Origin: Bacteroidales bacterium
GTDB taxonomy: Bacteria > Bacteroidota > Bacteroidia > Bacteroidales > VadinHA17
Reading direction: 5' to 3'
Assembly (NCBI GenBank): GCA_012519515.1
Contig: JAAYQC010000192.1
Location: 1 to 43,718, forward strand
Length of the DNA: 43,718 bases
Every line of letters begins with the position of its first letter. The stretch's first letter is position 1. Positions 13,329 through 13,741 of the stretch are shown here, in pieces. A program made the position numbers and the translations under genes. The notes below the pieces were generated by a model, which was not told the origin of the DNA, searched no databases, and worked only from the letters and a program-made list of their open reading frames with translations.

Positions 13329-13455
13329 TGTTTGGTTTTTATTAAGAAGGGTGGAGAGATTAGGCTCTGTGAAACCCTGGCAACCAATCCCGGCAATACG
13401 GGAGAAAGGTGCCAAAACCTAATCCCGAAAATACGGGAGATGATAAAAATAAACA
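13329..13455 (+). promoter_or_regulatory. SAM-I (S-box) riboswitch
   Basis: Closing stem P1 pairs TGTTTGGTTTTTATTA (13329-13344) with TGATAAAAATAAACA (13441-13455). The core shows the S-box consensus in order: AGGGTGGAGAGAT, then CTCTGTGAAACCCTGGCAACC, a P3 hairpin TCCCG/CGGGA, the P4 element AAGGTGCCAAAACC, and GGGAGATGATAAA at the 3' side. An additional small hairpin (TCCCG/CGGGA, 13423-13438) lies between P4 and P1. It precedes metY-hom-metH-metF, so SAM is expected to repress methionine synthesis. No terminator with a U-run follows directly; control may act through the downstream leader ORF and hairpin or on translation. Confidence 0.95.
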
Positions 13456-13463
13456 CGAAGACA

Positions 13464-13526
13464 ATGAAAGAATTTATTCAGACCCTCAACCACCTTCAAA
13501 TGCCGCTAATGCCTATGGGCATGTGA
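13464..13526 (+). CDS. Methionine-rich leader peptide ORF
   Basis: A 20-codon ORF starting nine bases after the SAM-I aptamer: MKEFIQTLNHLQMPLMPMGM, then TGA. Five of 20 residues are Met and four of the last eight are ATG codons, a density expected of an attenuator leader that senses charged tRNA-Met. It lies in the 5' leader of a methionine operon, 215 bases before metY, and is followed by a strong hairpin (13591-13647). The peptide itself need not have a function. No clear Shine-Dalgarno is visible, which is normal in this phylum. A chance ORF is the alternative, but sequence and position argue against it. Confidence 0.65.
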   Translation: MKEFIQTLNHLQMPLMPMGM

Positions 13527-13590
13527 CAGCAGGGACAGCACAGCTAAAGATGCGTGTTCCTGGTTCAAAGCTCCGGGTTCAGTGTTGAAA

Positions 13591-13647
13591 GTTGCCGGCT
13601 ACGGGTTATGAATTGCCTGTTAAGAAAAGGATAACCCGCGCGGCAAC
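13591..13647 (+). promoter_or_regulatory. Leader hairpin between leader ORF and metY
   Basis: GTTGCCG (13591-13597) pairs with CGGCAAC (13641-13647), and CGGGTTAT (13602-13609) pairs with ATAACCCG (13631-13638): 15 Watson-Crick pairs with a small internal loop and a 21-base apical loop. No U-run follows, so it is not a standard terminator. It could be a regulatory hairpin controlled by leader translation or the SAM-I switch. Confidence 0.55.
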
Positions 13648-13670
13648 CGCCAACTACTAACCCGAAATAA

Positions 13671-13712
13671 ACACCAGGCAACACGACACCAGGCAACTAA
13701 CACCAAGTAACC
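13671..13712. repeat. Short imperfect direct repeats before metY
   Basis: ACACCAGGCAAC occurs at 13671 and again within ACGACACCAGGCAAC, followed by the decayed copy AACACCAAGTAAC. This is a small tandem tract within the untranslated leader, 30 bases before the metY start. Confidence 0.6.
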
Positions 13713-13741
13713 ATCAACAATAACAAACAACTCACAGCATA

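Follow-up and report, generated by a model that had tools for sequence, protein, structure and literature searches.

Classical attenuators of the trp and his type encode a short leader peptide, in which control codons for the regulated amino acid lie near the end. Other described leaders come closer to the one considered here. Cysteine (cys) operons of Actinobacteria are preceded by a short ORF whose Cys codons come in runs close to its stop, and no conserved terminator is reported for them in the available text of PMC1262725. In the Xanthomonas campestris met operon, the expression platform of a SAM-I riboswitch binds uncharged initiator tRNA directly, which frees the Shine-Dalgarno sequence; the tRNA anticodon is dispensable, according to the available portions of PMC7270179. 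(The main text of that paper does not contain the term "leader peptide".) Finally, leader-peptide attenuation has been suggested for two members of the Bacteroidetes, Flavobacterium psychrophilum and Bacteroides thetaiotaomicron, in the available text of PMC9723704 and PMC7366714.

A methionine-rich ORF behind a SAM-I aptamer

The window, as we call the whole stretch of DNA analysed here, comprises 43,718 nucleotides of a Bacteroidales bacterium. Its methionine genes are preceded by a SAM-I aptamer and then by a short upstream ORF (uORF). The features, in window coordinates, are as follows.

13328-13333, + strand: P1 extension, 5' arm GUGUUU, pairing with 13451-13456
13336-13449, + strand: SAM-I (S-box) aptamer, RF00162 at 75.5 bits (gathering score 44.4), whole model matched (model positions 1-108)
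13451-13456, + strand: P1 extension, 3' arm AAACAC, spanning -13 to -8 relative to the uORF start
13464-13526, + strand: putative leader-peptide ORF (uORF), 20 codons plus TGA, encoding MKEFIQTLNHLQMPLMPMGM
13509-13523, + strand: uORF core ATGCCTATGGGCATG (Met-Pro-Met-Gly-Met), with nucleotide-level conservation in the family
13591-13647, + strand: 15-pair hairpin of 7 + 8 pairs (GUUGCCG/CGGCAAC and CGGGUUAU/AUAACCCG), without a U tract
13742-15046, + strand: metY, O-acetylhomoserine sulfhydrylase (TIGR01326, 627 bits, cut-off 495.1)
15043-16245, + strand: homoserine dehydrogenase, hom (NF004976, 315.3 bits, cut-off 205)
16267-19917, + strand: metH, methionine synthase (TIGR02082 and NF007024, both above cut-off)
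19896-20882, + strand: metF, methylenetetrahydrofolate reductase (TIGR00676, 306.2 bits, cut-off 293.7; ORF taken from the first ATG)
20899-22239, - strand: metK (TIGR01034), convergent with the met operon

An earlier note on this DNA, made from the letters alone, had described a complete S-box aptamer, a 20-codon Met-rich ORF and metY in this order, and all three are borne out. The aptamer is the only RF00162 match in its own genome at E 0.001 or better. The uORF has ATG codons at positions 13, 16, 18 and 20, and ends in MPLMPMGM directly before the stop; thus four Met fall within the last eight codons, the clustering of control codons near the stop that a leader peptide should have. The spacing needs correction: the eight bases given between aptamer and ORF are 14 from the Rfam end to the ATG, or 7 if GUGUUU/AAACAC is counted in P1. 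The frame is open further upstream too, with an in-frame ATG inside the P1 3' strand that would give a 28-residue version; the start at 13464, not the upstream ATG, is the one conserved in relatives. Downstream, metF lies on the same strand as metH and overlaps its end, and is likely the last gene of the predicted met operon.

A terminator search found no + strand terminator-like site in window positions 13100-13800, so the leader does not look like that of a terminating SAM-I riboswitch. Among Rfam models, SAM (RF00162) and SAM-II (RF01726) alone passed their gathering scores in the window, and no T-box model did. The SAM-II match (22305-22364, - strand) is barely above its cut-off (44.3 bits against 44) and lies in the metK leader. 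The synthesis of methionine and its use would each be under a different SAM sensor class: SAM-I for the met operon, and SAM-II for metK.

We propose that the leader probably takes two inputs, combining the SAM-I riboswitch with a Met/Cys leader peptide that is read by the ribosome. As far as sequence can speak to this, the leader has the requisite parts: an aptamer, a uORF at a conserved position, coding-type evolution, enrichment of Met and Cys in the uORF tail, and an association with particular genes.

Family conservation and the invariant core

A SAM-I match is present in 71 of 117 genomes of the same family. The analysis covers 74 of the 77 matches (L155-L157, with no core pattern, were left out), and 58 of these 74 leaders carry an ORF with ATGCCNATGNNNATG, the MPMxM core. 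This ORF starts 43-61 nt past the aptamer core, mostly at 48-51, and is 20 to 39 codons long (22 codons in 36 of the 57 distinct ones). Its usual end, MPLMPMCMxR, is strongly conserved. The closest relatives by MetY among those compared, L115 (88%) and L125 (89%), encode MKMKTFFPIRPNHQMKLMPMGMGR and MKMKLFFQIRPNHQKKLMPMGMGR, respectively. Met/Cys tails also occur in family leaders that have no MPM core: MCNLCCMF in L003 and L111, and SYCLCTCNKCEF in L152.

Besides metY, the family uORF precedes genes with a metH-like start and an aspartate kinase gene (L117; TIGR00657, 325.4 bits, cut-off 208.7). Family metH leaders are mixed, with the uORF in some and none in L010, L014 and L143. In L010 and L014 the metH start lies close to aptamer P1, which suggests direct control of the translation start. 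Leader L120, before metX (NF001209, 337.1 bits, cut-off 331), has no uORF, and neither has L151, before a similar-looking gene. The uORF is likewise missing from seven leaders whose downstream gene has a weak resemblance to TIGR03287 (in L142, 113 bits, below cut-off), and is present in L147, before a gene of similar look. In the seven (L113, L126, L128, L135, L141, L142 and L145), a long P1 extension ends about 80 nt before the gene.

The family uORFs evolve as coding sequence. Across the 36 distinct uORFs of 22 codons, pN/pS at codons 2-15 is 0.41; permuting the columns gave a mean of 0.93, with 0 of 200 permutations at or below 0.41. Frames +1 and +2 of the same 36 uORFs contain 28 and 7 stops. 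A short, conserved ORF before the operon, with coding-type evolution, is what a leader-peptide attenuator should present. The earlier note had proposed checking relatives for conservation of the ORF and its Met codons and for synonymous-biased change, and the outcome did not refute it. What the note saw is genuine and exceeds chance.

The end of the ORF behaves differently. Codons 16-20 show zero synonymous changes in the family; because three of them are ATG, which cannot change synonymously, the weight of this result rests on two codons. Pro17 is CCT in 58 of 58 family uORFs (related sequences, and hence not 58 independent trials), though metY genes use CCT for only 333 of 899 Pro codons and Pro14 uses all four Pro codons. 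Codon 19 varies in amino acid, yet is always NNC (TGC 41, GGC 6, CGC 6, GAC 5). The free wobble bases in the core ATGCCTATGNNCATG are fixed, which indicates that a nucleotide-level constraint acts besides coding. These substitution patterns argue that the peptide is under selection and that its core carries a further nucleotide constraint; the invariance goes beyond coding need, and plain codon counting does not explain it.

Could this segment, CUAUGNNCAUG, work simply as RNA, through a hairpin or by binding tRNA-Met, with the reading frame a by-product? We consider this unlikely. It would account for the two changeable codons that never change synonymously next to a codon 19 that does change its amino acid, and for the fixed CCT. 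It would also account for the pattern NCT ATG NNC ATG (Pro or Thr) kept in six of 27 distant leaders: L051, L053, L055, L059, L060 and L063. There is even a parallel in the Xanthomonas SAM-I expression platform, which binds uncharged tRNA-fMet in the account given in the available part of PMC7270179. However, the anticodon is dispensable there, so a reading by display of codons lacks a precedent in that system. Moreover, the codons upstream of the core evolve as protein, and other lineages have Met/Cys tails without any such segment. A hairpin of the Met codons themselves, CATGC/GCATG, is weak: its inner pairs are invariant, one pair is broken in the GAC variants, and L051, L060 and L063 show no such hairpin by eye.

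The core was also considered as a genome-wide DNA site, which was not supported. Its pattern has a single match in the window's own genome, 108 matches listed in 117 family genomes (8 for a reversed control pattern), and 30 in 149 genomes of the order, two of them of the family (control 13). Thirty matches were inspected as loci, 20 of the 108 and 10 of the 30: 13 have an upstream SAM-I core and an MPMxM ORF; one is just 4 bases short of the end of its contig; and the other 16 lack a SAM core and have some other or a chance reading.

Separately, the sequence GCCTA in the invariant core (window 13508-13523, and relatives) could by eye pair with UAGGC of the aptamer P2 loop, which we take to pair normally with CCUAA. 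Cross-talk between uORF and aptamer through such pairing is possible.

Met/Cys tails beyond the family

The spread of such leaders was assessed with a single rule: an ATG 20-75 nt past the aptamer core, opening an ORF of 8-60 codons with at least four Met/Cys in its last 12 residues. It holds for 76 of 273 entries, or 76 of 267 distinct leaders (six entries duplicate another by their first 90 nt, and all six leave the hit counts unchanged), against a shuffled mean of 0.04 or less per group. In the family, 45 of 49 metY entries (48 distinct) are positive, compared with a mean of 0.04 and a maximum of 1 in 200 dinucleotide shuffles, as are 12 of 25 before other genes.

Outside the family, the rule holds for particular groups. 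The named loci, the top 80 among 197 relatives of the window MetY, were picked for similarity and are not a random sample; L031-L047 were excluded as probable family, and of the other 63 only the 32 with pattern-recognised cores were counted. Here the rule holds for 11 of 25 leaders with metY next and for four of seven with another gene first, and 14 of the 25 metY leaders have no uORF at this threshold. In the class and phylum samples, labels denote the best tblastn match to seven reference proteins, and entries are part of the best-scoring aptamer matches listed (12 of 179 loci, with no core pattern, were dropped). The class sample, made up mostly of metH leaders, is positive in four of 79 entries: metY of 55% identity or more, 2 of 2; metX, 2 of 3; metH, 0 of 56; distant metY-like, 0 of 10; and unassigned, 0 of 8. 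The phylum sample gave 0 of 88 (metY 0 of 49, metH 0 of 16, metX 0 of 9, metY-like 0 of 5, ThrA 0 of 1, unassigned 0 of 8), with 61 of its entries from other classes and 27 from the window's class. Only four of its 49 metY entries (three distinct) are from the window's class, all below threshold; one of them, L208, ends in QACCITRMR, just under it. Outside the family, metH leaders have the uORF in 0 of 71.

The 19 positive tails outside the family (228 residues) contain 76 Cys and 39 Met. They differ between lineages: SCCCSCC and FMRMRMSC, each directly before the stop, are examples. Carriers include Psychroflexus, Hymenobacter, Parapedobacter, Prolixibacter and Saprospiraceae, belonging to the Flavobacteriales, Cytophagales, Sphingobacteriales, Marinilabiliales and Saprospirales (NCBI orders). 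Judging by these tails, unrelated uORFs in five other Bacteroidota orders end in Met/Cys runs at the same place.

This spread bears on what is sensed. The earlier note took methionine for the signal; outside the family, Cys outnumbers Met in the tails, so the signal is better named sulfur amino acids. That note also had the operon read initiator tRNA-Met alongside the elongator. The initiator part is not supported, since internal AUG codons are decoded by elongator tRNA-Met and not by the initiator tRNA.

The tails bear also on a different kind of sensing, in which the tail would be an arrest sequence that responds to Met, Cys or SAM in the ribosomal exit tunnel rather than to tRNA charging. 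The position of the tail, which is C-terminal or close to it, and the strong conservation of the family end would suit a nascent-peptide arrest. Arrest peptides, however, generally rely on precise residues, whereas what the tails of other lineages have in common is richness in Met and Cys, not order or spacing. We regard arrest as quite improbable, and retain the reading in which the ribosome reports on the charging of Met-tRNA or Cys-tRNA.

Translation start, output step and known systems

In the available text of PMC6847099, Bacteroidetes mRNAs are described as having no Shine-Dalgarno sequences; in Flavobacterium johnsoniae, adenines at -3, -6, -12 and -13 promote initiation. At these four positions, A is found in 83%, 35%, 98% and 59% of 46 family uORF starts (representatives with less than 50% of 8-mers in common); in 86%, 69%, 86% and 69% of 35 metY starts; and in 53%, 59%, 94% and 59% of 17 distant uORF starts. 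The internal ATG16, taken as a control, has 11%, 7%, 85% and 9%. Because this control is high at -12 and low at -3, the telling position is -3. The context of the family uORF start would thus partly fit Bacteroidetes initiation; -6 does not fit.

The -12 A of the uORF lies inside the 3' arm of the P1 extension. In an alignment of the 46 family leaders, this five-pair helix is paired in 93.5% of cells, and three of its five pairs show changes on both sides; slid control structures show similar double-change counts, with 47-75% pairing. The extension is present also in family leaders without a uORF. Given these two observations, we infer only that SAM might close the uORF start.

For the output step, the comparison is with metH leaders that have no uORF, where an intrinsic terminator is found in 37 of 68 (4.0 after shuffling). 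A terminator-like site is found in 10 of 46 family uORF leaders (shuffled 3.2, with a maximum of 7 in 30 shuffles) and in 5 of 21 other uORF leaders (shuffled 2.1, with a maximum of 5, equal to that observed). Leader L026 has a clear terminator, a hairpin and GTTTTT directly after the stop codon. Around the stop codons of 17 distant leaders, the RNA is stabler than shuffles when folded in 60-nt windows (mean z -1.38 and -1.45); and in the family, the region 40-80 nt past the stop folds more strongly than shuffles (40-nt window, mean z -1.16).

Particular structures fared less well. RNAalifold, run on 30 aligned leaders for conserved downstream structure, returned no pairs, and a three-segment CCGG attenuator drawn by eye is accordingly unsupported. 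Pairing of the tail codons with downstream RNA, convincing by eye in several lineages, is at shuffle level: the mean z is -0.15 for 46 leaders of the family and -0.10 for 21 others, and a pairing control taken from the upstream uORF part gave +0.21 and -0.35. The 15-pair hairpin of the earlier note does exist (-23.5 kcal/mol for 13590-13660), but by eye it is not common to the closest relatives; a single copy in its own genome, and lacking a U tract, it was rejected as a conserved terminator. In its place, L115 and L125 have by eye other repeats, arrays of GGTACGAGGTACGCGG-like units; repeat insertion seems to be how the leader part between uORF and metY turns over. Rho is a candidate for the output step, solely by exclusion.

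As uORF leaders less often have a terminator of the metH type, the mere act of translating the leader could be what counts: the uORF might simply couple translation or give protection from Rho, its Met/Cys richness having no sensing role. This is very unlikely. For 32 of the 46 family representatives, the distance from the uORF stop to metY is 85-130 nt, far past the reinitiation peak of 11-14 bp given for Bacteroidetes in the available text of PMC4833913, and the Met and Cys enrichment is seen repeatedly among sequences that are unrelated. A chance ORF, easily found behind an aptamer in any one sequence, is next to impossible in view of the conservation, the coding-type evolution and the shuffle results.

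The two-input reading would then work as follows. The uORF would be translated, and scarcity of charged Met-tRNA or Cys-tRNA would make the ribosome dwell on the tail codons. A ribosome occupying the uORF end would presumably keep the downstream operon on. With the amino acids plentiful, the ribosome would finish and leave, and the RNA that follows, a hairpin or a Rho site depending on lineage, would lower expression. The earlier note placed the readings of SAM and tRNA in series, which may be wrong: SAM-gated ribosome entry fits at least as well. Here, more speculatively, SAM binding could stabilise the extended P1, whose 3' arm might cover the upstream adenines of the uORF start; SAM would thereby gate entry of the ribosome, and two signals would bear on one event instead of operating two independent switches. 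A bolder version, which we put forward tentatively and ourselves rather doubt, is that across Bacteroidota SAM recurrently gates not a terminator but a sensor ORF that measures Met/Cys charging, and that in the window's lineage the core also has a reader at the RNA level, such as tRNA-Met or the aptamer.

How does this leader compare with known systems? Like other SAM-I leaders (RF00162), that of the window has a complete aptamer, scoring above cut-off, before methionine genes. In the usual SAM-I leader an intrinsic terminator follows the aptamer; the window has none, and a conserved Met/Cys uORF in that place. If the two-input reading is true, annotation of Bacteroidota SAM-I leaders would change, and a plain terminator search would miss many outputs. 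No description of a SAM-I riboswitch with a Met/Cys leader peptide was found among the titles, abstract openings and text passages covered from openly licensed PMC papers, and the Bacteroidetes transcript maps (PMC9723704, PMC7366714) name none in their available text. Named strains with such leaders make the reading testable: Prolixibacter denitrificans, Parapedobacter luteus, Parapedobacter koreensis, Psychroflexus salarius, Marinoscillum pacificum and a Hymenobacter.

The Xanthomonas leader likewise has a second, Met-tRNA-linked input before methionine genes, as far as the available portions of PMC7270179 describe it. There the input acts by direct tRNA binding that frees a Shine-Dalgarno sequence, which Bacteroidetes mRNAs do not have (PMC6847099, available text); if true, the present reading would provide a clear case of leader-peptide control in a phylum lacking such sequences. 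The cys leaders of Actinobacteria resemble ours in the short ORF, its codon runs near the stop and the missing conserved terminator. They belong to another phylum and other genes, and the available text of PMC1262725 describes no riboswitch in the same leader.

Set against the trp and his attenuators, finally, the leader offers no alternative terminator/antiterminator pair that we could find, and it has a metabolite aptamer upstream. If the reading holds, a single message would carry a naturally occurring RNA control point with two inputs, keeping apart methionine as methyl donor and methionine as building block of protein.
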